From Bacteriovoracaceae bacterium (GTDB taxonomy: Bacteria > Bdellovibrionota > Bacteriovoracia > Bacteriovoracales > Bacteriovoracaceae): DNA of 64,000 nt. Location: NCBI GenBank assembly GCA_029865945.1, contig JARXAH010000093.1, positions 1 through 64,000 of the forward strand, given 5' to 3'. The notes under the pieces were generated by a model. The model saw only the letters and a program-made list of their open reading frames with translations, did not search any database and was not told the origin of the DNA. Shown piece by piece: positions 40,114 through 52,122 of the stretch. Made by a program: the position numbers and the translations under genes. Within the stretch, counting starts at the first letter, position 1; every line of letters starts with the position of its first letter.

Positions 40114-40686
40114 ATGATTGCCGAAAATTCTGTTGAGAAAACGGAGTCCGGATTTACGCTCGTTGAGTTGATGGTAGTTGTTGCGATCATCGGGATTTTA
40201 GCGGCCATCGCTATTCCGAACTTTAAAAAATACCAAGCAAAATCGAGAACCAGTGAAGGTAAGATCATGCTTGCATCGGGTTATACGGCGCTGGAATCTT
40301 TTTATCAAGAGTACAACATGTATTGTTCTTGTTTTAAATTTTCTGGATTTATTCCAACCGGAATAACAACGGCAGCTTCCTCGAGATCGACAACCAATTA
40401 TTACACAGTGGGTTTTTCTGCGACCGACATAACATCTCCAGGTGCTCAGGTCGTACCAGCAGGTTGTACGGCAGATAACACATTTGTTTACTTTGGAGAT
40501 AGGACTCCAGCGGGTGTTGCTTCTTTAGCTGCCAATACACTAACCAACTCGATTGTAACAAACAACTCTTCTTATGTTATTCAGGCGCAAGGTCAAATTG
40601 ATCCAGATTATACGACTTCACTTTCTGCCGATTCATGGACCATGTCGAGTCTAAAGGTTCTTGATCAAGCAAGAAGTGGTTATTAA
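40114..40686 (+). CDS. pilA: Type IV major pilin, first tandem copy
   Basis: A 190-residue class III prepilin: a 13-residue leader [13 protein letters not shown], cleaved before Phe by PilD, then [20 protein letters not shown], the conserved hydrophobic helix with Glu5. The globular part is rich in Ser and Thr ([13 protein letters not shown]) and has cysteines (CSCFKF and AGCTAD) that may form the D-region disulfide. ATG 40114 has AAGGAAG upstream; an upstream ATG at 40072 gives a poorer leader. The frame is shared with the second pilin and they are separated by one TAA and 21 further bases. Confidence 0.95.
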
Positions 40687-40707
40687 TTTTTTCAAGGAGT
40701 CATCAGT

Positions 40708-41268
40708 ATTAGCCTTCAAAGAAGTGAATCTGGTTTTACTCTTGTAGAGCTCATGGTAGTCGTGGCCATCATCGGTATATTAGCAGCGATTGCTATTCCC
40801 AATTTCAAAAAATATCAGGCAAAATCGAGAACCAGTGAAGGAAAGATTATGTTGGCGTCGGGTTACACGGCGTTGGAATCTTTATACCAAGAGCACAATC
40901 TCTACGCTTCATGTTTTAAATTTGCAGGATTTATTCCCACAGGAATTCTTACGGCCGCATCCACAAGGGCAACGACAAATTATTATACTATCGGATTTGA
41001 TACCGCAGACATAACAGCTCCGGGTGCGCAGACTGTACCGACTGGATGTACAGGAGATAGTACTTTTGTTTATTTTGGAGACAGGACTCCTGCAGGTGTT
41101 GCGTCGCTGGCCGCTAACACGCTTACCAACTCTATTTCTGCAGATAATTCTGCTTATGTTTTACAGGCCCAAGGTCAAATTGATCCAGATTATACGACAT
41201 CACTTTCGGCGGATTCGTGGACGATGACTAGTGCTAAAGTTCTAGACCAAGTCAGAAGCGGTTATTAA
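40708..41268 (+). CDS. Type IV pilin, second tandem copy, apparent ATT start
   Basis: The mature sequence is close to the first pilin throughout ([60 protein letters not shown], then a shared [12 protein letters not shown]). Between the previous stop (40686) and the internal ATG at 40753 there is no ATG, GTG or TTG in frame. The ATG at 40753 would remove the leader and half the helix. ATT at 40708 lies eight bases after AAGGAG and gives the leader (M)SLQRSESG before FTLVE, so I choose it; ATC 40702 is the alternative. 186 residues; two Cys (ASCFKF, TGCTGD). Confidence 0.8.
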   Translation: MSLQRSESGFTLVELMVVVAIIGILAAIAIPNFKKYQAKSRTSEGKIMLASGYTALESLYQEHNLYASCFKFAGFIPTGILTAASTRATTNYYTIGFDTADITAPGAQTVPTGCTGDSTFVYFGDRTPAGVASLAANTLTNSISADNSAYVLQAQGQIDPDYTTSLSADSWTMTSAKVLDQVRSGY

Positions 41269-41330: not shown

Positions 41331-43067
41331 TCATTGAAAATTTAAATTTAAATTTGAATTTGAATTTAAATTTGAAGTTGGTGTAGTCGATTGTAAAAAC
41401 GTGGGGAGTGTTTTTGGTTTTATATTCATCGCTTTAAATTTTTCTTCGATGAATGTTTGAATTTTTTTACAATCTTCTCCCCCTACGCTTTGGCAAACCT
41501 CAATAATATTTTGAAATCTAATGTAAGTTTCCTCATCTGTCGCTTTACGATTGGACTCATTATCAAGACGAAAATCTTTAAGTTTTTTAAGAGATGCGAG
41601 AGCGTCACTAGACCTTCCACCCTCTAAATAGAGCGACGCCAAAACATACAAGTACCAATCATTTTTAGACTTCATCTCCAGCATTTTATCAATTTTTTGG
41701 GCGTTAGAAAATTTAGGATGCATGAACACGGCAATGGCGTAGGTAATATCATATTGGTCTAAATGTTCTTTCTTCGCTGTCTCTGGTTCAACCGTTTTAA
41801 TCTTAAGTAGCAAATCGTAAACTTGCTCAGGATTTTTTTTCACCCGGAACATGCAAAGAAATAATCCATTGAGCCATGTTTTATCAACGGTAAAAGAATA
41901 GGACCAAAGTTCATCATCACTCATCCAAGTTTTCGCCAAGGAAAAACTGTGAACGTAAAAAATACAAAAAAAGGCGAGGTAAATGAATTTAGAGAAAATT
42001 TTAATTTCTCTTCCTTTAAGCGAGGTGAAAGTTAAAAAGAAAATTAAAAAAATAGAGACCGTAGGAATCAACGCGTAAGTATCATAATAATAATAGCGAA
42101 AGGAAACGACTGTGGGCAGCAAGATAAATAAATAAAGCAAAAAAGACTTCCGAGGACGACGATAGGCAAAGAAGTGGAGAATCGTGAAAAGAGAAAATAC
42201 GATCCATCCAATTTTGGAATTTTCAGGTTTCATAATGGGAATGGCGCCGTATGTATCCACTCCTAATGACTGATAAAAAGTTCTGCCCAGCGTATCGAAA
42301 AGAAAATAAAAAGTGGGACGCGCTTCGGCAAGCAGCCTCTCTTGGTACTTGAGGTTGTTGGCATAAATGAACAATCCCCCAAGAATAAAAAAGATAACAA
42401 AGAGTAAAAATTTTTTCTTATTTTCTTTGTGAATAAATAAACTCTGCAGAAAATGGGTCAACACGTGAATGGGGTGAGATAGAGTGGATAGCATGTAAAA
42501 GGCAGTAGCTTTTGGAAATGAGGATGTAATTTTATTTTTGCGATGATTGATGACAAAAATAAATCCCAAAATGAGAAAGAGGGCCGAGAGAAGATGCTTG
42601 ATGCTAGAAATCCATGCAACGGATGCCACCGTCGTCGGGTGAATGCAGATGAGGGATAAAAAAAGATAGGTCTTGAGTGGGGAGAGATAGTACCTACTAA
42701 TTAAAATTCCACACATGCTAAGAAAAAGAGAAAAAATTATCAGACAATAAAGATGAAACGATCTTAATCCGGTCAATTCTTCAATTTTCCAAAAACAAAA
42801 AATAAATAAATCACGAACCGGCTGGATGTCGAGAATTTCATTACTTTTAAAGAGCCTGATATAATCGGCCAAAGAATGAACTTTTTTTATTGATAAATAA
42901 ATGACGTTATCATCGCGAATAAGCATCGGGTCTTTGATAATGAGGTTTTTATAAATCGGAAATGTGATCGCAAAGAGTAGCAAAAATCCCAGAATCGGAG
43001 AGTAGCGAGTGATTTTAAAATCCAAAAAAATTTCCCATGTTAAGGGAAGTATATTTTTGCAAAGCAT
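41331..43067 (-). CDS. TMTC-like membrane protein with TPR-like C-terminus, candidate O-glycosyltransferase
   Basis: A 578-residue polytopic protein. About ten helices occupy residues 1-390. An early loop has RDDNVIYLSI, matching the acidic pair found at this place in C-family glycosyltransferases, and residues 140-175 read HPTTVASVAWISSIKHLLSA, very like the HP-x-x-x-x-VAW-[IV]-S block of TMTC/TPR proteins. From 400 on it is soluble and helical (TWLNGLFLCMFRVKKNPEQV; NDWYLYVLASLYLEGGRSSD), TPR-like. It ends in an Asn/Leu/Ser tail from a hexamer repeat. It overlaps pilD by 53 bases at ATG 43067; a later TTG start is possible. It lies between pilins and pilD. Confidence 0.65.
   Translation of the reverse strand: MLCKNILPLTWEIFLDFKITRYSPILGFLLLFAITFPIYKNLIIKDPMLIRDDNVIYLSIKKVHSLADYIRLFKSNEILDIQPVRDLFIFCFWKIEELTGLRSFHLYCLIIFSLFLSMCGILISRYYLSPLKTYLFLSLICIHPTTVASVAWISSIKHLLSALFLILGFIFVINHRKNKITSSFPKATAFYMLSTLSHPIHVLTHFLQSLFIHKENKKKFLLFVIFFILGGLFIYANNLKYQERLLAEARPTFYFLFDTLGRTFYQSLGVDTYGAIPIMKPENSKIGWIVFSLFTILHFFAYRRPRKSFLLYLFILLPTVVSFRYYYYDTYALIPTVSIFLIFFLTFTSLKGREIKIFSKFIYLAFFCIFYVHSFSLAKTWMSDDELWSYSFTVDKTWLNGLFLCMFRVKKNPEQVYDLLLKIKTVEPETAKKEHLDQYDITYAIAVFMHPKFSNAQKIDKMLEMKSKNDWYLYVLASLYLEGGRSSDALASLKKLKDFRLDNESNRKATDEETYIRFQNIIEVCQSVGGEDCKKIQTFIEEKFKAMNIKPKTLPTFLQSTTPTSNLNSNSNLNLNFQ
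41338..41373. repeat. Six AAATTT/GAATTT hexamers at the 3' end of the TMTC-like gene
   Basis: Six abutting 6-base units (three AAATTT, two GAATTT, one AAATTT) encode the NLNSNSNLNLN tail on the minus strand. Whole-unit changes would keep the frame. Confidence 0.9.
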
Positions 43068-43809
43068 AGGTTAGAATAATCGCCGGGCCAAAAGGAATCG
43101 GCCGGGCCAAAAGCGATTTTTTATTTTGATTCCAGAGAAGATAAGGGAGTCCGAAAAGTATGCCGAGTGTGGAGCTAAGAAAAAGTGTTTCCATAATTTT
43201 TTGGGCACCGAGAGATAGGCCTAAGATTCCCAAAATTTTAATATCGCCTCCACCAAGTCCTATTCGATTTTTTAATTTGAGATAAATCCAACTAATCAAA
43301 AAGGGGACTAGGAATCCAGTTAGGCCTCCAACAACATGCCAGGTGATAGATTGATGACTAAAAAAGAGGAATTCCACGGCGATCAATCCAAGCAAAATCA
43401 TGTTGAGTCGATCAAGGAGAAGAAAATGCTCAAGGTCAATGAAAAAATGGGATATCAATATTGAAACGATACTAAGGGCAAGTAATGACTGTATTACTGG
43501 GTGCGAAGTTGACTGGAAATATTCGGGAGATAATAAAAAGAAAGCTACGCCAGTAATAAACTCCACCAAGGGGTAGCGAAGGGAAATTTTATTTTTACAT
43601 TGAAGGCAACAACCTCTTATGAGGATAAAACTTATAAGGGGAACATTGCAATAGATGGGAATGAGAGCTTGGCAGTGGGGGCAGTGAGAGCGCTTAAATA
43701 TCCAATCTATATTTCTTGGCAGGCGATAAATAATGACATTAAGAAAACTACCGACGAGTAGTCCTAAAAATAAAAAAAACCATTTGGACGTTAATGTTTG
43801 CTCGATCAT
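43015..43809 (-). CDS. pilD: Prepilin peptidase / N-methyltransferase PilD
   Basis: A 264-residue inner-membrane aspartyl protease that removes the pilin leader and methylates the new N-terminus. It has FLGLLVGSFLNVIIYRLP, the two CxxC pairs (SHCPHC and CLQCK) between the first helices, RYPLVEFITG, the first catalytic Asp region (HFFIDLEHFLLLDRLN) and the second in GLGGGDIKILGILG. All essential motifs are present, so the pilins here can be processed by it. Leader specificity (Gly before Phe) fits. It is on the opposite strand from pilA; two bases separate it from the permease gene upstream. Confidence 0.95.
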   Translation of the reverse strand: MIEQTLTSKWFFLFLGLLVGSFLNVIIYRLPRNIDWIFKRSHCPHCQALIPIYCNVPLISFILIRGCCLQCKNKISLRYPLVEFITGVAFFLLSPEYFQSTSHPVIQSLLALSIVSILISHFFIDLEHFLLLDRLNMILLGLIAVEFLFFSHQSITWHVVGGLTGFLVPFLISWIYLKLKNRIGLGGGDIKILGILGLSLGAQKIMETLFLSSTLGILFGLPYLLWNQNKKSLLARPIPFGPAIILTYALQKYTSLNMGNFFGF

Positions 43810-43810
43810 C

Positions 43811-44590
43811 TTACTCGAAATCCTTATTCTTAATAATCATGGCGCCAAGAACGATAAAAATCAAAATATACAAACCGGTGTAAAGGTAGGCCGTGTAAAT
43901 ATATTGAAGGGAAAAAGGGCGCGAATAATAGATGTGATCTCGAATATTAAGTTTATTGAAGTCAGGGAAAAACCACATAAGTATTTTTAAAGTTTGTTTG
44001 AGCCACGGAAGATTAACAACGATGCTGGTATCAAGAATTTGCGGAATAAATTGTCCTGCCAGATAAACGGAAAGGGAAGTAACCATGGCCAGCATTTTTG
44101 AGAGAAAGAGTGAAAAAAAAATACTGATTAGTAAAACAATGAGGGATTCAAGTAATAAAATGGTAATTCCCAACCATTGATAGCTTTGCAGATTTCCCCC
44201 ATAAAGATAAAACAGCGATGTAGATACTGTGGTTAAAACTAAAAAATTGCAAATGAGATAGAGATACACGCCCACCGTTTTTCCAACTAAAAATTGAAAT
44301 CGAGAAATAGGCCTAGTGATAATCATAAACACAGTTCTGCTTTCTATCTCGTCAGGGATGACCGAACATCCCCATATAACACTAAAAATGAGAGAAGTTA
44401 GGGAGACAAGTCCAAGGCCAACGTCGAGGGAAGATCTTTCAGGTACTCCAAAGGTAAACTCAGTGGATATGAAGGTAGCAAACATAATAAAAATAACCGC
44501 TGCCACCGTTGCAAAAAAAGCTTTTCCGTAAATGAAGTCGGCAAAACTATTTTTTGCCACCACCCAGATGGGGAAAATTCGGTTATACAT
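43811..44590 (-). CDS. pilI: ABC-2 type transporter permease, PilI-like
   Basis: A 259-residue permease with six hydrophobic segments (FATVAAVIFIMFATFIST; VSLTSLIFSVIWGCSVIPDE; VYLYLICNFLVLTTVST; ITILLLESLIVLLISIFFSL and others) and ESRTVFMIITRPISRFQFLV near residue 85, as in ABC-2 permeases. In Myxococcus and Bdellovibrio an ABC pair named pilH-pilI lies beside pilD or pilM and is needed for pilus formation; the location here matches, hence the name. The gene overlaps the ATPase gene by eight bases. Confidence 0.75.
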   Translation of the reverse strand: MYNRIFPIWVVAKNSFADFIYGKAFFATVAAVIFIMFATFISTEFTFGVPERSSLDVGLGLVSLTSLIFSVIWGCSVIPDEIESRTVFMIITRPISRFQFLVGKTVGVYLYLICNFLVLTTVSTSLFYLYGGNLQSYQWLGITILLLESLIVLLISIFFSLFLSKMLAMVTSLSVYLAGQFIPQILDTSIVVNLPWLKQTLKILMWFFPDFNKLNIRDHIYYSRPFSLQYIYTAYLYTGLYILIFIVLGAMIIKNKDFE

Positions 44591-45443
44591 CGAAGATAAC
44601 TTCCTCTAAAGATTTTTGAATGGGAGTCAGAGAGTAAATTTCAAAATTGTTACTTTGTAATTCCGCAATCATTTTATTTTTTTGAGATTTTTCAATTTTC
44701 TGAGAAATCAATTTCTTGTTAGAATCTAAATAAGAAATTTGAAAATAATTTGAAATTCCAGATTGTATGATGTCTTCGAGTTTTCCATTAAAGAAAATTT
44801 CTCGGTTTTTTAGAAAGATGACGTTATGGCAGATGTCTTCGATGTCTGACACAATGTGGGTCGTAAATAGTATAGTCTTACCTTCGGAATGTAATCTCAC
44901 TAACAAATCTTTTACTTCTTTTCTGCCCACCGGATCAAGCCCTGAGGCCGGTTCATCGAGAATAATAAACTGGGGATCGTGAAGGACAGTAACAAGCAGC
45001 CCGAGTCTTTGCAGCATTCCTTTAGAGTAAGTTCTAATGGATCGCTTAAGCGCTTCTTCATGTAGGCCTACAATCGGGGCCCATTTTTTTATTCCAGCAG
45101 TAATATCTGCGCGTTTCATTCTTGATAATTGGCCCATGTAGAAAATGAATTCTTGTCCTTTCAGTGCGGGGTAGTAGTAAGCGCGCTCCGGCATGTACCC
45201 AATATTTTGATTGATTTCAAAAAGGGAACGTCCCATCGAGGGATGATATTCTACTTCGCCACTTGAAGGCCTAATAAGTTTCAAAAGAATCTTGATACAG
45301 GTTGTTTTTCCAGCTCCGTTGGCACCTAAGAATCCGGTGATTTTGTTAGGAAGAATTTCAAAATTGATATTTTTAAGAGCAGTCACTGGGTGAGATAAAA
45401 TATCGGAATTGTAGGTGTGAGAGATGGAGTTGAGCTTAACCAT
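44583..45443 (-). CDS. pilH: ABC transporter ATPase, PilH-like
   Basis: A 286-residue ATP-binding subunit starting at ATG 45443 (MVKLNSISHTYNSD); a TTG-started extension to 45494 is not protein-like. Walker A is GANGAGKTTCIKILLKLI, Q-loop NIGYMPERAYYYPALKGQEF, signature RTYSKGMLQRLGL, Walker B FIILDEPASGLDPVG, H-loop LFTTHIVSDIED. The C-terminal 60 residues are a short regulatory-looking domain common to ABC-2 ATPases. It pairs with the permease downstream. Divergent from the TPR gene at 45516, with about 70 bases for both promoters. Confidence 0.85.
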   Translation of the reverse strand: MVKLNSISHTYNSDILSHPVTALKNINFEILPNKITGFLGANGAGKTTCIKILLKLIRPSSGEVEYHPSMGRSLFEINQNIGYMPERAYYYPALKGQEFIFYMGQLSRMKRADITAGIKKWAPIVGLHEEALKRSIRTYSKGMLQRLGLLVTVLHDPQFIILDEPASGLDPVGRKEVKDLLVRLHSEGKTILFTTHIVSDIEDICHNVIFLKNREIFFNGKLEDIIQSGISNYFQISYLDSNKKLISQKIEKSQKNKMIAELQSNNFEIYSLTPIQKSLEEVIFDV

Positions 45444-45515
45444 ACTGTATTCTAATTTAATTTTACTTCTAGGGCCATCAATTGCTACGATCAAAATTGT
45501 GGAAAAGATGATTCT

Positions 45516-46181
45516 ATGTTCATAAAAAAAATGGAAATCTCATTTTTATTTTTACTACTTGCAGTGGGATTTTTATTTACCAATTATGTAAATGAATATC
45601 TTGTCTTGCCGCCCCTTTCCGTAAAATCAGAAGAGAGTAAATTAAAAATTTCAGATAAAATTTCATATTTTAATTTTGGTCACCGAAGACTCATGCTTGC
45701 TTTGCTATGGATTAAAACTTTGCTTGATGCGGACATTGAACATTATCAAAAACGAGATCTAGGAAATTGGCTCTACTTAAGGTTTAGAGCGCTTCTTGAA
45801 TTAGATCCTCTGTTTTTGGAGGCCTATCAATACGGTGGACTATATTTGTCAGTTATAAAAGATGACATTAAAGGGGCAACGGAAATCTACAATTTAGGTT
45901 TGGCAAAATTTCCTAACGATGATGTTTTAAATTTCAATGCTGGCATTCATTTTTTAAAAGAGGAAAAAGACTTGGCAAGGGCCTTGCTTCTCTTGCAAAG
46001 AGTCGTCAATGCTGAACTTTGTCCTCCTCACATTCCCCTATTGATTGCGAGAATTATGTTGAAGTTGGGAAAACCAAAAGACGAAGTGATTCGCTATCTT
46101 GAAGAGCTACTCAAAATTTCAAATAACGAATTTAGATCGAATAACATCCAAAAGAAAATTCATGAACTTAAAAAAAATTAA
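45516..46181 (+). CDS. Membrane-anchored TPR-like protein, possible PilG counterpart
   Basis: A 221-residue protein with one N-terminal helix (ISFLFLLLAVGFLFTNYV) and a helical periplasmic or cytosolic domain carrying TPR-like pairs: LRFRALLELDPLFLEAYQYG, GATEIYNLGLAKFPNDDVLN, ARALLLLQRVVNAELCPPHI, VIRYLEELLKISNNEF. The segment FNFGHRRLMLALLWIKTLLD precedes them. In Myxococcus pilG precedes pilH and pilI; here this gene is divergent from pilH, so identity with PilG is only an inference from neighbourhood. It overlaps the next gene by 20 bases. Confidence 0.65.
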   Translation: MFIKKMEISFLFLLLAVGFLFTNYVNEYLVLPPLSVKSEESKLKISDKISYFNFGHRRLMLALLWIKTLLDADIEHYQKRDLGNWLYLRFRALLELDPLFLEAYQYGGLYLSVIKDDIKGATEIYNLGLAKFPNDDVLNFNAGIHFLKEEKDLARALLLLQRVVNAELCPPHIPLLIARIMLKLGKPKDEVIRYLEELLKISNNEFRSNNIQKKIHELKKN

Positions 46182-47508
46182 TCTTAACTTAATAAATCTA
46201 AGACCTGCCGAGTTTCAAGTCGTCATCTTTCTTTTTATTCTCATTCTCAATATTGGAGCGCTGTATTTACATATAGCAAGTGGGTATGAATTTAATTCTA
46301 ATACTCGAACGAGTTTCGATGGGGAATTTTATAAAAATTTAATTCATTGTTACGAAGTTGATGAGTGCTCGTACAAGCAAATTAATTCCACCGCTGATGA
46401 CCCTGGCCACATGGGATTATTTTTTTTTAACTATTTACTTTTTCCCTCCGATTCAAGTTTCGATCCTAAAGACTACAATTCCTTCCCCACGTTTGTGCAG
46501 TTTTTTTACCTGTTGAGTTTCTGGGTTTTTTTAGGCATTTATTTTTTTAATGCAGTAAAAATTTGGGGCCTATTGGTGGCCACGCTAGGGGGACTCTCAT
46601 TTATCTTATTTGAAAATTTTTATCACTTGGCCTATTCCAATGATGTTTATTTGTTTCCAGTTTATGGAATTTCTGCGGCATTGATTTGGTTTTCACCGAC
46701 GATTTTTTCTAAAAAATATATCTACGCGCTAGGGATTTACTGTGGAATTTTAGAGTGGTTTAGAGTTGGGTCAGGAAAGTATTTTTTAGTGGGAGCATTG
46801 ATCTATATTTTATTTTATAACAATAAAATTCTCTCACGCCGACGGGAAATGTTAAATTATTTTTTCATCATTATCCTTTCTTGGTTAGTTTCCTTATTGC
46901 CGAAGGTGATCTTATCTAACGCGGGCCACTCTCTTTGGCATGCCATCCACGCAGGGATGTTTGAAGAGGGCGGCGTGGAAATTTCTGGGCACCGTTTTGT
47001 TCCCAATTTCTTAATTGATGAATTCAAAAATGAGGAAGTGCGACAAAGATTCGGAAGTTGGTCTGATCAAAATCAATTTGCTGTTGTTTTAAGAACGAAC
47101 CCTAAGGCCGCTTTAGGTTCAGTTGAATATGATCATATTTTAAAAAATGATTATTTAAATCTTGTGAAGGCGTATCCAAGAAAATTTTTAGAATTTTATG
47201 TGGCCAGATTTTTAAAAGTTATTGATTTAAATCCCTGGAAGCAACATGAAGCAGATAGCCATTATCAGGTGAATAGATGGACAAGCAGGATATCGTTGGC
47301 AGTATTTTTATTTTTCATTGGGGCATTTTTAATTTCCCCAATGTCCTCTCACACTAAAATTTTGTTTCTTGCCATGATGTCCTTATCTTTAGTCGGACCA
47401 ATACTCATTCATCCTACTTACGTCATGTATAATATTTCTTTTTATTGGATGGCATTTCTCCTCATATATATCGTGCTTTCCTATCGATTCACTTCACGCG
47501 TGCGATGA
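46162..47508 (+). CDS. Polytopic membrane protein, glycosyltransferase-like topology
   Basis: A 448-residue protein from ATG 46162 (MNLKKINLNLIN); the open frame begins at 46099 inside the previous gene. About nine helices, with a large polar loop after the first containing RTSFDGEFYKNLIHC (an acidic pair region) and a second soluble loop at about 260-350 (WHAIHAGMFEEGGVEISGHR). Arrangement resembles C-family membrane glycosyltransferases (ArnT/PMT-like), but no firm motif is seen, so I leave it unnamed. It ends in a 20-base convergent overlap with the methyltransferase gene of the glycan operon. Confidence 0.6.
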   Translation: MNLKKINLNLINLRPAEFQVVIFLFILILNIGALYLHIASGYEFNSNTRTSFDGEFYKNLIHCYEVDECSYKQINSTADDPGHMGLFFFNYLLFPSDSSFDPKDYNSFPTFVQFFYLLSFWVFLGIYFFNAVKIWGLLVATLGGLSFILFENFYHLAYSNDVYLFPVYGISAALIWFSPTIFSKKYIYALGIYCGILEWFRVGSGKYFLVGALIYILFYNNKILSRRREMLNYFFIIILSWLVSLLPKVILSNAGHSLWHAIHAGMFEEGGVEISGHRFVPNFLIDEFKNEEVRQRFGSWSDQNQFAVVLRTNPKAALGSVEYDHILKNDYLNLVKAYPRKFLEFYVARFLKVIDLNPWKQHEADSHYQVNRWTSRISLAVFLFFIGAFLISPMSSHTKILFLAMMSLSLVGPILIHPTYVMYNISFYWMAFLLIYIVLSYRFTSRVR

Positions 47509-48343
47509 CGTACATAATATCAAAAAAGTTTAAATAAATATCAAACGACAAAATTTTTGTTTTTTTCAATAATCGGTAGATCCAAGAAAATTTCCAACGG
47601 ATAACAAATAATTGATAACAAATTAAATCCAGACTTCTGTAAGCGCCACTATGTTCGAAATGTATGATTTCTAGTCCATGTTTTTGAAGCAAAAGCTTGA
47701 GGGTGTTTTTATTAAAATAGTGAGCATGGGTTGGTGGATGAATAAGGCGCCACTTAGATTTACGAACTCGTGCCACTAGACTTCCAATATCTCCCGTGGT
47801 GAGCGCTATCAGTCCCTTGGGATTTAAATGGGAAGCTATTTTCTTGATATAAATATCTGGATCTCGTAAATGTTCAATCGTATCCCAGAGGCAAACTACA
47901 TCATAGTTTTTATTTTGAAAGTCCCAATGTTCCAAATCCATTTTAATGGCGGTAAGGCCCAGTTGATGATTGATATAGTCCACGCCTTCTTTTGTGACAT
48001 CTATCCCCATCACGGATTGATAAAATGGCCTCGCCACTTGTAAAAAAAAACCATAAGCACAACCAACCTCGAGTAAAGATTTATCGTGAGAGTTCTCAAC
48101 TTTATCCTGCAAGACCTTTAGTCTGGACTTGAAATTTTTTTTAATAATGATCTCATCGGCCAAATAATTTGAGTATTCATCGCCATGGAAATATTTATTT
48201 TGATATAAGGCCTCAAAATCTTTTTGTGATAAATTTAAATCAGCGTAGATGTATCCACAATGGGAGCATTTCAAAATAGCTGGATAGAATACGAGTGATG
48301 AAGACAGGCCACAAATAAGACATGGGCCATGGGGATTGTTCAT
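47489..48343 (-). CDS. Class I SAM-dependent methyltransferase with N-terminal zinc-ribbon-like motif
   Basis: A 284-residue soluble enzyme. Residues 6-32 hold CLICGL and CSHCGYIYAD, a zinc-ribbon-like pair seen in sugar C- and O-methyltransferases of surface-glycan clusters. The SAM fold follows: LLEVGCAYGFFLQVARPF, VMGIDVTKEGVDYIN, YDVVCLWDTIEHLRDPDIYI and GLIALTTGDIGSLVAR. It is the last gene of a minus-strand operon of five genes joined by four-base overlaps, so a glycan or polyprenol-linked sugar is the likely substrate. Exact reaction unknown. Confidence 0.8.
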   Translation of the reverse strand: MNNPHGPCLICGLSSSLVFYPAILKCSHCGYIYADLNLSQKDFEALYQNKYFHGDEYSNYLADEIIIKKNFKSRLKVLQDKVENSHDKSLLEVGCAYGFFLQVARPFYQSVMGIDVTKEGVDYINHQLGLTAIKMDLEHWDFQNKNYDVVCLWDTIEHLRDPDIYIKKIASHLNPKGLIALTTGDIGSLVARVRKSKWRLIHPPTHAHYFNKNTLKLLLQKHGLEIIHFEHSGAYRSLDLICYQLFVIRWKFSWIYRLLKKTKILSFDIYLNFFDIMYVIARVK

Positions 48344-49290
48344 GGAAAATTAATTTTCCTTTCCACAATATAAAGTGGGCGTCCTTTCACTTCATCAAAG
48401 ATGGCGCCAATGTATTCACCTAGAATCCCTAGGAAAAAAAGTTGAATCCCTCCAAAAACACAGATGAGAATACTGAGTGTGCTCCATCCACTAGGTATGG
48501 ATCTATCCATAAAGTAATTAGCGATAACTATGACGATAAAAATTAAACCCAAGAGACTAAATAATAATCCTGAAACAATGGCGTACTGCAAAGGTCGTTT
48601 GCTAAAAGATGTAATTCCAGAAAGAGCAAACGTAAATATTCTCGCCCAGTTATATTTGCTCTCTCCGATCGCCCTTGGGAGTGCATCGTAATGAATTCCA
48701 ACTTTATTAAATCCCACCCATTGAAAGAGACCGCGAAGGAATTGATTGCGTTCGCGAATTTGATGTCTAAAAATTTCTGCAACCCTCCTTGAGATGAGAC
48801 GAAAATCGGCCTCACCAGAACTTAGTTTGATTTCCGAAATTAAATTGAGAATTTTATAGAAATATTGGGATCCCATTCGGTTGATGAATGACTTATTTTG
48901 GGGCACATTTCTGATCGTATAGACAATATCGTATCCATTTTCGAACGTTAGCAACATGTTGGGAATTAACTCAGGTGGGTGCTGTAAATCGGAATCCATC
49001 ATAATGATGACGTCCGTATTTACATGATCGATCCCGGCCACTAATGACATTTGATGTCCAAAACGGGAACTTAAAGATAAGATTTGTACTTTCGAATTTT
49101 GGGCCGCTATTTTTTCTAGCTCCTCTAGGCTTCTATCAGATGATTTATCTAAAACGAAAATAATTTGCCAATCATAGCGCGTGTCCAATGTGTCTAGGGT
49201 ATTTTTTAATTTCTCGTAAAAAAGTGAGATCATTTTCTCTTCATTAAAAACAGGACAGATGACGGATACTGAAGTCACAAGAGATTTCAT
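48340..49290 (-). CDS. Family 2 glycosyltransferase with two C-terminal membrane helices (GtrB/ArnC-like)
   Basis: A 316-residue polyprenol-phosphate glycosyltransferase type enzyme. Start at ATG 49290, which overlaps the previous stop as ATGA; an upstream start at 49323 is less likely. VSVICPVFNEEKMISLFYEK, LDKSSDRSLEEL, DVIIMMDSDLQHPPELIPNM (metal site), GEADFRLISRRVAE and RNQFLRGLFQWVGF match the GtrB/DPM1 group. Two helices (YAIVSGLLFSLLGLIFIVIV and LSILICVFGGIQLFFLGILG) and EYIGAIFDEVKGRPLYIVE close the protein. It probably makes undecaprenyl-phosphate-linked sugar for a flippase. Confidence 0.85.
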   Translation of the reverse strand: MKSLVTSVSVICPVFNEEKMISLFYEKLKNTLDTLDTRYDWQIIFVLDKSSDRSLEELEKIAAQNSKVQILSLSSRFGHQMSLVAGIDHVNTDVIIMMDSDLQHPPELIPNMLLTFENGYDIVYTIRNVPQNKSFINRMGSQYFYKILNLISEIKLSSGEADFRLISRRVAEIFRHQIRERNQFLRGLFQWVGFNKVGIHYDALPRAIGESKYNWARIFTFALSGITSFSKRPLQYAIVSGLLFSLLGLIFIVIVIANYFMDRSIPSGWSTLSILICVFGGIQLFFLGILGEYIGAIFDEVKGRPLYIVERKINFP

Positions 49291-50231
49291 GATTGAAGCA
49301 TCCTGTTTAGTGATTGCTGCCAAGGTAGGAAATGTTGAAAACCCGTTAAGGATTTTAAAAGGGTAGGATCACCATAGTTAATGTACAGATCATTGGATCT
49401 CATGCGGCCAGTGTCCTTCCGAATAGCGAGTTTCATGCCGGAATGCTCGACTAGAAAATGCACCATATCTTTGAGAGAAACAGGAACCCCAGAACATAAA
49501 TTAACGATATTTCCATAGGATTTCTCATGAATCGCCAGCGACCAAATAAGGGGAATGGCGTCGTCAATATCGATAAAGTCTCTTAAGGTTTCTAAGTTTC
49601 CCACTTCCAGAAAAAAATCTTTCGATGGATTCTCAAGTCGCCATTTTTTGATTTGATTCACAAAGCTTCCGATGGCCATGTAGTGAGGCATTCCATGTCC
49701 TAAAACCGTAAAAGGTCTAATGCACAAAACTTGAATTTGAGGAAAAGCACTTAACGACATTTGTGTTTGTGATAATTTACTAATTCCATAATTGCTTATC
49801 GGCCTAGGGCAATGACTTTCTTTGATTGGCAAACTGGACTCTTCAACAAAACCATACTCAGCTGCTGAGCCAAAGACAATAAGTTTGGATTTTTCTTGAA
49901 GCTGACTTAGCTTGATGGCGTCGATGATCCTCATCGCGTATTGGCAATTAATTTCCATCGATTCATGCAGCCCATTGGTGTGAACACTGGTGGCCAAGTG
50001 GAAAATTAAATCTGGGCGAATTTCGAGTAAAACTTCCTTTATGTATTCCGTGTTATTGGCTCCGATAGATGATGGGCCCAATGCAAAATGCTTGTCGCGA
50101 TTGATACCTGGATCTTTTCTTGCAAGCGTAAAAACGTGGTGTCTTTTTTGAAACAAAAATTTTAATAAATGTTGACCGATAAAGCCGTTGGATCCGGTCA
50201 CTAAAATTTTAAGATGCTGAGTTTCTTTCAT
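49287..50231 (-). CDS. NAD-dependent sugar epimerase/dehydratase (extended SDR)
   Basis: A 314-residue Rossmann enzyme acting on nucleotide sugars. It has the N-terminal LVTGSNGFIGQHLLKFLFQK (GxxGxxG), LIFHLATSVHTNG, KLIVFGSAAEYGFVEES, and the catalytic Tyr-x-x-x-Lys as NYGISKLSQTQM, then VLCIRPFTVLGHGMP and FIDIDDAIPLIWSL. Similar to UDP-glucose 4-epimerase/GDP-4-keto-6-deoxy sugar reductase type proteins; the substrate cannot be fixed. It starts within the end of the WecB-like gene (overlap four bases) and is followed by the GtrB-like gene (overlap four bases). Confidence 0.85.
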   Translation of the reverse strand: MKETQHLKILVTGSNGFIGQHLLKFLFQKRHHVFTLARKDPGINRDKHFALGPSSIGANNTEYIKEVLLEIRPDLIFHLATSVHTNGLHESMEINCQYAMRIIDAIKLSQLQEKSKLIVFGSAAEYGFVEESSLPIKESHCPRPISNYGISKLSQTQMSLSAFPQIQVLCIRPFTVLGHGMPHYMAIGSFVNQIKKWRLENPSKDFFLEVGNLETLRDFIDIDDAIPLIWSLAIHEKSYGNIVNLCSGVPVSLKDMVHFLVEHSGMKLAIRKDTGRMRSNDLYINYGDPTLLKSLTGFQHFLPWQQSLNRMLQS

Positions 50232-51307
50232 TTTTTGTTTTTAAAAAGATCGTTAATAATCCAATAAATCATTTTTAAGTATAGCTTTTGGTGTGAGCGA
50301 TATTTAAATTTTTTAGTTATTTTCTGTTTGAGTATTTTGTTAACAGAATTTAAGTTAAGTTTTGTCGGGGGAATTAATTCCACGATTCCCGGCTTAAGGT
50401 GCTCGGGGTATTCTGTGTTTTCTCGCAGTATGATTAATTTTTTATTTAAATAGTGTGCCTCATCTGTAACCCCGCCAGAATCAGAGATGATTAATTTACA
50501 ATGATAGAGCGAATTTAAAAATTCTAGATAGGGCAGTGGCCCGCTGGATTCAAATGTGAAATTATTTTCTTTCTCAAATTTAAGAATAGAAGGCCGCGCT
50601 CTGGGGTGAGTGATAAAGAATAATTTATGTTCTTTATTTATTCTCAAAAGTTTGTTTAGGATTTTACGGAATTTTTCGTAATCATCCACATTGGTGTTGC
50701 GGTGGATTGTTATCAAAATAGCATCTTGAGCTTTTTTTTGAAACGTATTAGCTTTTTTAATTTTTTCTCTATGAAAATGAATCGCTTCAAGTCCCGTATT
50801 AGGAAGTAAAAATTTCTTTTGCTTCAATTTTTCTGCTTTCAAATGATTCAGGCTGCTTTTACTAAAGGGCTGATTGGCGTAGGCAAGATGATCCACGATT
50901 TTTCGATTGATTTCTTCTGGCATCCGTTGATCAAATGACCTGGCGCCCGCTTCCAAATGTAAAAAAGGAATTTCTAGTGATTTTGCCACCAAGGCACCAA
51001 GTACTGTGGAATGGGTGTCTCCTTGGACGATAATGAAACTCGGCCTAATTTTCGCCACCAGTTCAAACATTTTTTTAAACGACTCGGCGATTTGTAGTGG
51101 TTTAGCCAATGTTAAATCAAATTTTAATTCCCAATCTGGTTTGCGAATATTTAAAGATAATAAAGTCGCTGGGTACATTTCGTCTGAGTAGTGCTGTCCC
51201 GAGGAGATCAGCGTGTGCTTAAAGTGCTTATCGAGTAGCGGTATGAGAGGCGAGAGTTTGATGAGCTCCGGGCGAGTTCCAAAAATAGTACAAAGATGGG
51301 CCCTCAT
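50228..51307 (-). CDS. UDP-N-acetylglucosamine 2-epimerase-like protein (WecB family)
   Basis: A 359-residue GT-B-fold epimerase family protein. It has LCTIFGTRPELIKLSPLIPL, TLISSGQHYSDEM, FIIVQGDTHSTVLGALVAKS, LEIPFLHLEAGARSFDQRMP, the EEINRKIVDHLAYA block, ILITIHRNTNVDDYEKF and ISDSGGVTDEAHYLNKKLII. This set of motifs is diagnostic for the family that makes UDP-ManNAc (WecB) or hydrolysing relatives. The usual ATVHREN is AILITIHRNTN. It lies between the SDR and GT2 genes, four-base overlaps on both sides, so it likely provides an amino-sugar precursor to this operon. Confidence 0.88.
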   Translation of the reverse strand: MRAHLCTIFGTRPELIKLSPLIPLLDKHFKHTLISSGQHYSDEMYPATLLSLNIRKPDWELKFDLTLAKPLQIAESFKKMFELVAKIRPSFIIVQGDTHSTVLGALVAKSLEIPFLHLEAGARSFDQRMPEEINRKIVDHLAYANQPFSKSSLNHLKAEKLKQKKFLLPNTGLEAIHFHREKIKKANTFQKKAQDAILITIHRNTNVDDYEKFRKILNKLLRINKEHKLFFITHPRARPSILKFEKENNFTFESSGPLPYLEFLNSLYHCKLIISDSGGVTDEAHYLNKKLIILRENTEYPEHLKPGIVELIPPTKLNLNSVNKILKQKITKKFKYRSHQKLYLKMIYWIINDLFKNKK

Positions 51308-52062
51308 TTAATGATACCCAACGAAATTTTGAGCACAAACATTAAATGCTGTTTGATGTTTTTCAAAATTTTCATTTTTGATTCGCCAAATTTTCGATAA
51401 TTATTTTCAGCGGGAAATTCGTAAATTGAAATTTTCTTTAAAATAGCTTTCACCTTAATTTCGGTGATAGCTAAAAATCCATTCTCTTGGATGATCATAT
51501 CTTGAAGGACATATTTTCTATAAATTCTTACCATGCAGGTATAGCAAAAAAATTTTTTTCTTAAAATGAGATTATAAATAAGGACAACCCCACGGCTCAG
51601 TGCCAAACGATAGAGGGGAACACTTTTATTTTTGGGTGCCTTTGGATGATAGGGGCACGCATCAACAATTTCATAATAATTAATGTGTTTGATCATCGCC
51701 AAAATCAACAACGGGCTGTAAGCGCAATCCGCATCAAGCACAGCAACCATGTCTCCTTTTGCGTGGGCAATTCCTGTTTTGACGGCCGAGCCTAACCCAG
51801 AGTTACTTGTATGGTGAACAATGGAGGAGTTCTGGAAATCCTTTTTGAAGGCCTCCAACTGGGCCCCAGTATCATCGTCACTTCCATCATTAACAAAAAT
51901 AAATTGTAGAGTAATACTATTTTTTAACTTGAGAAATTGTTCTTGAAGATTGAGTAACTTACTTTTGGAATACTCCAAAGTTAGAGCTTCATTGTAGCAT
52001 GGAATAATAATACTCAGATAATTACCTGACCATCCGCGGATGGTATTTTCTTTCACTGCCAT
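51304..52062 (-). CDS. Family 2 glycosyltransferase
   Basis: A 252-residue GT-A enzyme starting at ATG 52062 (MAVKENTIRG); a start nine residues earlier is also open, and neither has a clear ribosome site. YLSIIIPCYNEALTLEYSKS, FIFVNDGSDDDTGAQLEAFK, SNSGLGSAVKTGIAHAKGDM and VAVLDADCAYSPLLILAMI are the typical nucleotide and metal motifs. The C-terminal part has a hydrophobic stretch but no clear two-helix anchor, unlike the GtrB-like enzyme of the same operon. It is the first gene of the operon; the promoter must lie in the 130-base gap shared divergently with pilM. Confidence 0.85.
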   Translation of the reverse strand: MAVKENTIRGWSGNYLSIIIPCYNEALTLEYSKSKLLNLQEQFLKLKNSITLQFIFVNDGSDDDTGAQLEAFKKDFQNSSIVHHTSNSGLGSAVKTGIAHAKGDMVAVLDADCAYSPLLILAMIKHINYYEIVDACPYHPKAPKNKSVPLYRLALSRGVVLIYNLILRKKFFCYTCMVRIYRKYVLQDMIIQENGFLAITEIKVKAILKKISIYEFPAENNYRKFGESKMKILKNIKQHLMFVLKISLGIIK

Positions 52063-52122
52063 AAAAAGATCATAGCAAGGAAAAATCAATAGTTCAGGTC
52101 TTTATTCCGTCTGAATGTTTTT

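Follow-up and report, generated by a model that had tools for sequence, protein, structure and literature searches.

Results

A membrane protein gene between pilin and prepilin peptidase genes

What is the role of a large membrane protein encoded in the middle of a pilus (pil) locus, and is the neighboring pilin its substrate? The question was raised by a preliminary description of the 64,000-nucleotide stretch of Bacteriovoracaceae DNA analyzed here (the window), in which an open reading frame (ORF) was proposed to specify a TMTC enzyme that glycosylates pilin. The ORF does lie between the pilA and pilD genes, as that description had it, flanked by pilin 2 on one side and pilD on the other (Table 1). 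The locus comprises pilB (35741), pilT (37438), pilC (38764), the pilin genes, pilD, genes for an ABC permease and ATPase, a TPR gene and, from 52178, pilM to pilQ; the names follow from position and from resemblance to the corresponding genes of relatives, supplemented by family matches for those genes that were so tested. The gene for the candidate glycosyltransferase (GT) converges with that of pilin 2, and its start overlaps the 3' end of pilD, on the same strand, by 53 nt, an arrangement suggesting that the two may be translationally coupled. At its own 3' end (window 41331-41380), the GT gene consists of successive AAATTT/GAATTT hexamers, which encode SNLNSNSNLNLNF; through slippage, these could make the C-terminus of the protein variable.

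Searched as a single sequence, the GT gave no significant match to Pfam, NCBIfam or PDB sequences. Relatives with 25-30% identity were found in the host's taxonomic family, and further members were then gathered by profile, yielding a 38-row alignment drawn from 129 genomes of that family. The presence in many genomes of homologs with identical invariant residues rules out a chance ORF and confirms 41331-43067 as a genuine gene.

Between the stop codon of pilin 1 and the prepilin motif of pilin 2 (window 40684-40760) there is no ATG, GTG or TTG codon. An AGGAG sequence lies 8 nt ahead of an ATT codon (40708), suggesting that pilin 2 either uses a rare ATT start or is a silent copy. Both pilins are rich in Ser and Thr, as previously remarked: once the first 30 residues are set aside, the two amino acids make up 24-27% of the sequence, whereas pilins from loci without GT average 17.9%. 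The mean for GT-bearing loci is 21.9%, and a test in which the other GT-C loci were included gives a p of 0.001, with no correction for kinship. The enrichment lends weak support to the idea of a modified pilin.

Table 1. Features of the window and of related loci. Positions are those of the window unless preceded by a handle.
Feature	Position	Strand	Evidence
Pilin 1, putative acceptor	40114..40686 (ATG 40114)	+	N_methyl Pfam 1.5e-8; typeIV_PilA_Myxo 5.3e-23, under model cut-off
Pilin 2, putative acceptor	40708..41268	+	N_methyl Pfam
Candidate pilin glycosyltransferase, TMTC-like GT-C membrane protein, 578 aa	41331..43067	-	ORF, profile match, AF2 model, fold matches
C-terminal TPR-like alpha-solenoid, residues 384-547	41427..41918	-	AF2 secondary structure; TPR/PPR fold matches
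Codons 329-331 (DTY), place of TMTC motif M7, without arginine; Y331 invariant	42075..42083	-	Profile alignment
Codons 197-200 (SHPI), place of TMTC motif M4 KE(T/Q), without Lys and Glu	42468..42479	-	Profile alignment
Codons 143-158, HP...VAWISSIKH; K157 and H158 invariant 38/38, at TMTC RxD place	42594..42641	-	Family alignment
D80-x-Q-P83-x-R-D86 codons; D80, P83, D86 invariant 38/38	42810..42830	-	Family alignment
D52-D53 codons, first periplasmic loop; D52 in 37/37 rows with a residue there	42909..42914	-	Equals TMTC motif M1
pilD prepilin peptidase	43015..43809	-	Pfam A24_N_bact and Peptidase_A24
SAM-dependent methyltransferase	47489..48343	-	PF13489 6.3e-26
PgfS/ArnC-like membrane-bound family-2 glycosyltransferase, candidate donor synthase	48340..49323	-	PF00535 1.6e-28; NF047588 PgfS 4.2e-82, 276 of 500 bits cut-off
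NAD-dependent sugar epimerase/dehydratase	49287..50231	-	PF01370 6.7e-31
wecB-type UDP-GlcNAc 2-epimerase	50228..51307	-	TIGR00236, 211.4 bits, cut-off 210.15
Family-2 glycosyltransferase, candidate polyprenyl-phosphate sugar maker	51304..52089	-	PF00535 5.4e-27; weak PgfS and PpgS matches
TMEM260-like (PF11028) ORF of G120 pil locus and probable one of G104	L114:6911-8794, L115:2521-4362
GLFTKTQ membrane-anchored proteins	L018:8173-8895, L019:8412-9011, L022:9883-10524, L059:8265-8963		No Pfam match

A relative of TMTC-like proteins with a signature of its own

When the 38-row family profile was compared with 14 ordinary bacterial TMTC-like proteins, the two aligned over 458 columns (hhalign 99.9%, E 6.5e-33); the homology to TMTC is traced through these bacterial proteins. 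Eight residues, D80, P83, D86, P144, K157, H158, L160 and Y331, are invariant in the family. The early DD pair of the preliminary description was found at residues 52-53 and corresponds to TMTC motif M1 (DD, first outward loop); its first Asp is universal in the family and its second is present in only 19 of the 38 rows. The block reported as HP-x4-VAW-x-S exists as H143-P144-TTVAS-V150-A151-W152-I-S-S, but the spacing from HP to VAW is five residues. Among the 38 relatives, this block always has P144 and almost always W152, and its invariant core is K157-H158, on which that description is silent.

The TMTC motifs as published (PMC7801869) were checked column by column. Across the 38 rows, M2 (SHKSYRP, first outward loop) is not kept, D-x-Q-P-x-R-D standing in its place; M3 (RxD, EL2) gives way to R/I-K-H, with His in all rows; M4 (KE(T/Q)xxT, EL3) has Q or H at the Lys place and mostly P at the Glu place; and M7 (ERxxY, EL5), whose Arg contacts phosphate, is replaced by D-T/S-Y. 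Most ordinary bacterial TMTC-like proteins from this phylum retain the M4 Lys (13/14) and the M7 Arg (10/14), so that loss of both is a feature of the lineage to which the window GT belongs. The Pfam domain DUF1736 had no match in the 12 family members examined and was absent from the matches listed for the 14 ordinary proteins.

In TMTC models, M3, M4 and M7 contact mannose and phosphate, which makes a different donor or a re-modeled site likely, so that mannose cannot be assumed. Absence of RxD, KE(T/Q), ERxxY and a DUF1736 match leaves the O-mannosylation previously suggested by TMTC kinship unsupported, and the designation "O-mannosyltransferase" was discarded in view of the loss of the mannose- and phosphate-contact motifs. 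Since the Lys and Arg through which TMTC contacts phosphate are missing, the chemistry may be altered or lost. What survives of the original "TMTC enzyme" is a distant homology to TMTC-like proteins and probable membership in the GT-C type; the strict definition fails at M2, M3, M4, M7 and DUF1736. Judged from its sequences, the family is a sister lineage of TMTC-like proteins, with its own D-x-Q-P-x-R-D and K-H signature, and not a true TMTC. The TMTC label is thus unjustified for the window GT, which nevertheless probably acts as a TMTC does, with a different sugar site.

Predicted structure

An AlphaFold (AF2) model of the window GT was obtained with a pLDDT of 80.7 and a pTM of 0.84. Its leading membrane-enzyme fold matches are GT-C enzymes, namely PglB (probability 0.98), STT3 (0.98), DPY19 (0.90) and Pmt4 (0.94), with E values of 0.1-0.8 and TM scores of 0.33-0.41. 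As no match passes E 1e-3, the fold search supports, rather than proves, a GT-C fold. A search of viral folds returned nothing at E <= 0.001. The TPR-like tail of the preliminary description is visible in the model as an alpha-solenoid (about residues 384 to 547), and the fold matches include TPR and PPR proteins, but the tail has no significant counterpart at the sequence level (Pfam TPR_19, E 0.19); the family profile compared with PDB sequences gave only weak matches to designed TPR proteins.

Recurrent association with pilin genes

The region following pilC was surveyed in about 106 loci of the host's taxonomic family, 90 of them complete from pilC to pilD. Gene order is near-invariant: pilC, pilin, tprX (reversed), ABC ATPase, ABC permease, pilD, pilM. 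The ABC ATPase and permease pair and the membrane-anchored TPR protein (43811-46181 in the window) lie between pilin and pilD in almost all surveyed loci. No extra large gene is found in 75 of the complete loci; eight carry a member of the GT family and four carry other GT-C-type or GT-C-like membrane proteins. Three further loci with a GT family member are on incomplete contigs. A family-wide requirement of the GT for pilus assembly is ruled out by the 75/90 loci that lack the gene.

Altogether, 12 of the 38 family members in the 129 genomes reside in pil loci, where about 0.1-0.2 would be expected by chance (P about 1e-19 or less, or about 1e-12 if only eight are independent, both figures ignoring shared ancestry). 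Direct contact with a pilin gene is seen in 10 of the 11 pil-linked members with full context, and in G022 a single pilin gene is flanked by two GT copies. At least five gene arrangements occur: the GT gene may follow the pilin gene in either orientation, precede it, lie on both sides of it or between two pilin genes, or stand before pilD. Of 15 ordinary TMTC-like genes inspected from the same family and phylum, none maps to a pil locus (Fisher p 0.012). Pil-linked members are dispersed on the GT tree, with nine changes for 12 rows, a count which cannot separate gains from losses and comes from a quickly built tree with many long branches. Their grouping in a single clade was rejected (AU p 1.9e-6), and with it a single origin of the pil linkage; repeated gain and repeated loss of the pil position alike leave a non-random association. 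The pattern extends to two further families of the phylum: the pil loci of G181, G171 and G210 again have a GT gene beside the pilin gene, accompanied by a gene for another large membrane protein.

The preliminary description had proposed to look in relatives for co-occurrence with pil genes, and this was found far above chance. The same description had held that a location of relatives away from pil loci would speak against the idea; this is half the case, 26 of the 38 members being elsewhere and 12 in pil loci. From these gene neighborhoods, the link of the family to the pilus, or more exactly to pilin, is strong.

Other proteins at the same position

The pil locus of G120 encodes, after pilD, a TMEM260-like protein scoring over the PF11028 cut-off, and that of G104 has a partly masked ORF beside the pilin gene whose match falls just under the cut-off, making it a probable TMEM260-like protein. 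PF11028 was not found in the window genome. Large membrane proteins encoded beside pilin in G033 (weak match to a membrane-protein family of unknown function) and G010 (no family match) were read as GT-C enzymes, judged by eye only. The interval between pilin and tprX in G026 (L163:2645-5392) is occupied by the gene for a 915-aa membrane protein with a spermidine-synthase domain; not every insertion at this position is therefore a glycosyltransferase.

Additional large membrane proteins were encountered near GT genes. Elsewhere in the phylum, outside the host's taxonomic family, the GT gene adjoins genes for proteins of 726-803 aa that match no Pfam family significantly (L230:6750-9035, L231:6764-8944, L232:578-2833, L234:10927-13338); these may be a second GT-C enzyme or a partner. 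The window itself has, beside the TPR gene (46099-47508), an ORF for a membrane protein of 469 aa, possibly another GT-C-like enzyme, that matches no Pfam family and has nothing similar in the other surveyed pil loci.

Family members outside pil loci

Away from the pil loci of the taxonomic family, the GT genes of G026, G033, G035 and G084 converge on a gene whose small product bears the sequence GLFTKTQ and a membrane helix at its N-terminus. Strong copies of this protein in the 129 genomes number four full-length and one fragmentary, and all four full-length ones adjoin a GT gene. In three of these loci, and on fragment L244, the next gene encodes a large membrane protein; the one in L018 has a sulfatase domain, and the remaining ones resemble it in length and N-terminus. 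The GTs of these loci, with one further member, form one clade (SH-aLRT 99). The structure model of the GLFTKTQ protein is poor (pLDDT 51). The pairing suggests that being encoded next to a putative substrate may be a habit of the family. In another subclade (L071, L072, L076, L081), the GT gene is consistently found between lepB and a mutS2-like gene, with no evident substrate, and some non-pil members adjoin genes without a visible link to glycosylation. The G071 copy (L070:8998-10092), near a contig end and beside a family-2 glycosyltransferase gene, is broken by several stop codons.

A sugar gene cassette in the window locus

Five reversed genes between tprX and pilM (47489-52089; Table 1) form a cassette that, among the surveyed pil loci, is confined to the window genome. 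Their family assignments suggest that it could build a polyprenyl-phosphate amino sugar, and it may supply the window GT with its sugar, possibly a HexNAc. Beside the pil locus of G104 lie a similar family-2 glycosyltransferase gene and a weakly similar methyltransferase gene, a likeness suggestive of a link to donor supply. The window genome also encodes one Wzy_C protein, unlinked to the GT gene, which could be an O-antigen ligase, a polymerase or a PglL-type enzyme.

Discussion

From the gene, its homology, its predicted fold, its conserved polar signature and its repeated linkage to pilin genes, we infer catalysis, a donor and its sugar, a Ser/Thr acceptor, pilin as that acceptor and a role for the tail. 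The interpretation that we favor, and consider reasonably probable, is that the window GT is a pilus-dedicated glycosyltransferase of the GT-C class, from a bacterial sister lineage of TMTC-like proteins, which glycosylates pilin in the periplasm from a lipid-linked sugar. On the cytoplasmic face of the membrane, a family-2 transferase would load a sugar onto undecaprenyl phosphate, and the charged lipid would flip. The GT would then bind it in the periplasm through the first-loop aspartates (D52, D80, D86) and K157-H158 and move the sugar onto a Ser or Thr of the membrane-anchored prepilin or pilin, in whose choice the TPR-like tail may help. The enzyme would thus probably add sugar to the pilus.

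It seems conceivable that a GT-C glycosyltransferase of this kind acts mainly on another surface protein or on a lipid, its proximity to pilin being incidental or reflecting a permissive insertion site. Most family members do lie outside pil loci (26/38), a different secreted protein accompanies one subclade in all four assessable genomes, and the pilA-tprX region may tolerate insertions, such as the spermidine-synthase-like gene of L163. However, insertions in the locus are rare (75/90 loci have none) and mostly of GT-C type, pilin contact is far above expectation and the members arrived or stayed there independently; we regard an acceptor other than pilin as unlikely. Somewhat less likely still is a non-catalytic accessory or assembly factor that has kept the GT-C scaffold and binds pilin through its TPR-like tail. 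The loss of TMTC motifs M3, M4 and M7 and the solenoid-like tail would fit such a role, and there is precedent in TfpY-type proteins, which are encoded beside pilA and aid assembly without glycosylation (PMC11841053). Yet Asp, Lys and His are invariant where the active-site loops of a GT-C enzyme are expected and, because unrelated GT-C-type enzymes take the same position elsewhere, chemistry fits better than binding.

Of all the readings considered, we give least credence to participation in a capsule or LPS pathway, together with the cassette at 47489-52089 and with no tie to the pilus. Its attraction is that the cassette shares the locus in the window genome, but no other surveyed pil locus has the cassette, and the adjacency of GT and pilin recurs without it. 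About the wider generalization our opinion is evenly divided: that the family is a new one of pilin glycosyltransferases, sister to TMTC, with its own active-site signature and repeated linkage to pilin; that it shares its position with other GT-C-type enzymes, including TMEM260-like ones; that the pilA region is a changing site of pilin modification; and that related enzymes have a different secreted protein as their dedicated substrate.

Full-length homologs of TMTC proteins are present in poorly characterized prokaryotes (PMC7801869), and the literature searched contained no paper assigning a substrate to a bacterial TMTC-like protein. In the GT family, predicted enzyme and predicted substrate are encoded next to each other, and such pairs can be tested by measuring pilin mass. 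The pilus is an organ of predation in Bdellovibrio-like predators (PMC4237445), and the sugar on the Pseudomonas pilus is reported to bear on phage resistance (PMC11841053). If the host is such a predator, as pilin similarity leads us to suspect, a sugar coat on its pilus could affect both prey contact and phage resistance.

Comparison with known systems

TMTC1-4, the animal O-mannosyltransferases of CAZy family GT105, resemble the window GT in their multi-spanning N-terminal part, the acidic pair in the first outward loop and a C-terminal part that is TPR-like in the model, with profile homology by way of ordinary bacterial TMTC-like proteins. Unlike them, the window family lacks RxD, KE(T/Q), ERxxY, SHKSYRP and DUF1736, and the window GT belongs to a prokaryotic cell and has a pilin neighbor. 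TfpO/PilO and TfpW of Pseudomonas aeruginosa, likened here by their published descriptions, are also encoded beside pilA as proposed modifiers of that pilin. TfpO and TfpW are reported to be unrelated to each other (PMC11841053), and the title of a paper cited there presents TfpW as a GT-C arabinosyltransferase.

Periplasmic O-glycosylation of pilins, as proposed for the window GT, is performed in Neisseria and others by PglL-type O-oligosaccharyltransferases. PglL enzymes are Wzy_C-family proteins; the window GT, unlike the PglL and PilO type, has no match to Pfam Wzy_C. In the Pgf system of Streptococcus mutans (PgfS-M1-E-M2), a family-2 glycosyltransferase, an epimerase and GT-C-like membrane proteins modify adhesins (PMC5856776). 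The substrate and the membrane enzyme differ from those proposed here, and the likeness lies in the window gene at 48340-49323, which best matches the PgfS model, though under its cut-off. TMEM260-like proteins (PF11028, GT117) form a separate Pfam family, to which the window GT has no match, but they are GT-C proteins with a TPR-like tail, as the window GT is predicted to be, and they too are encoded in pil loci, in G120 and probably in G104.
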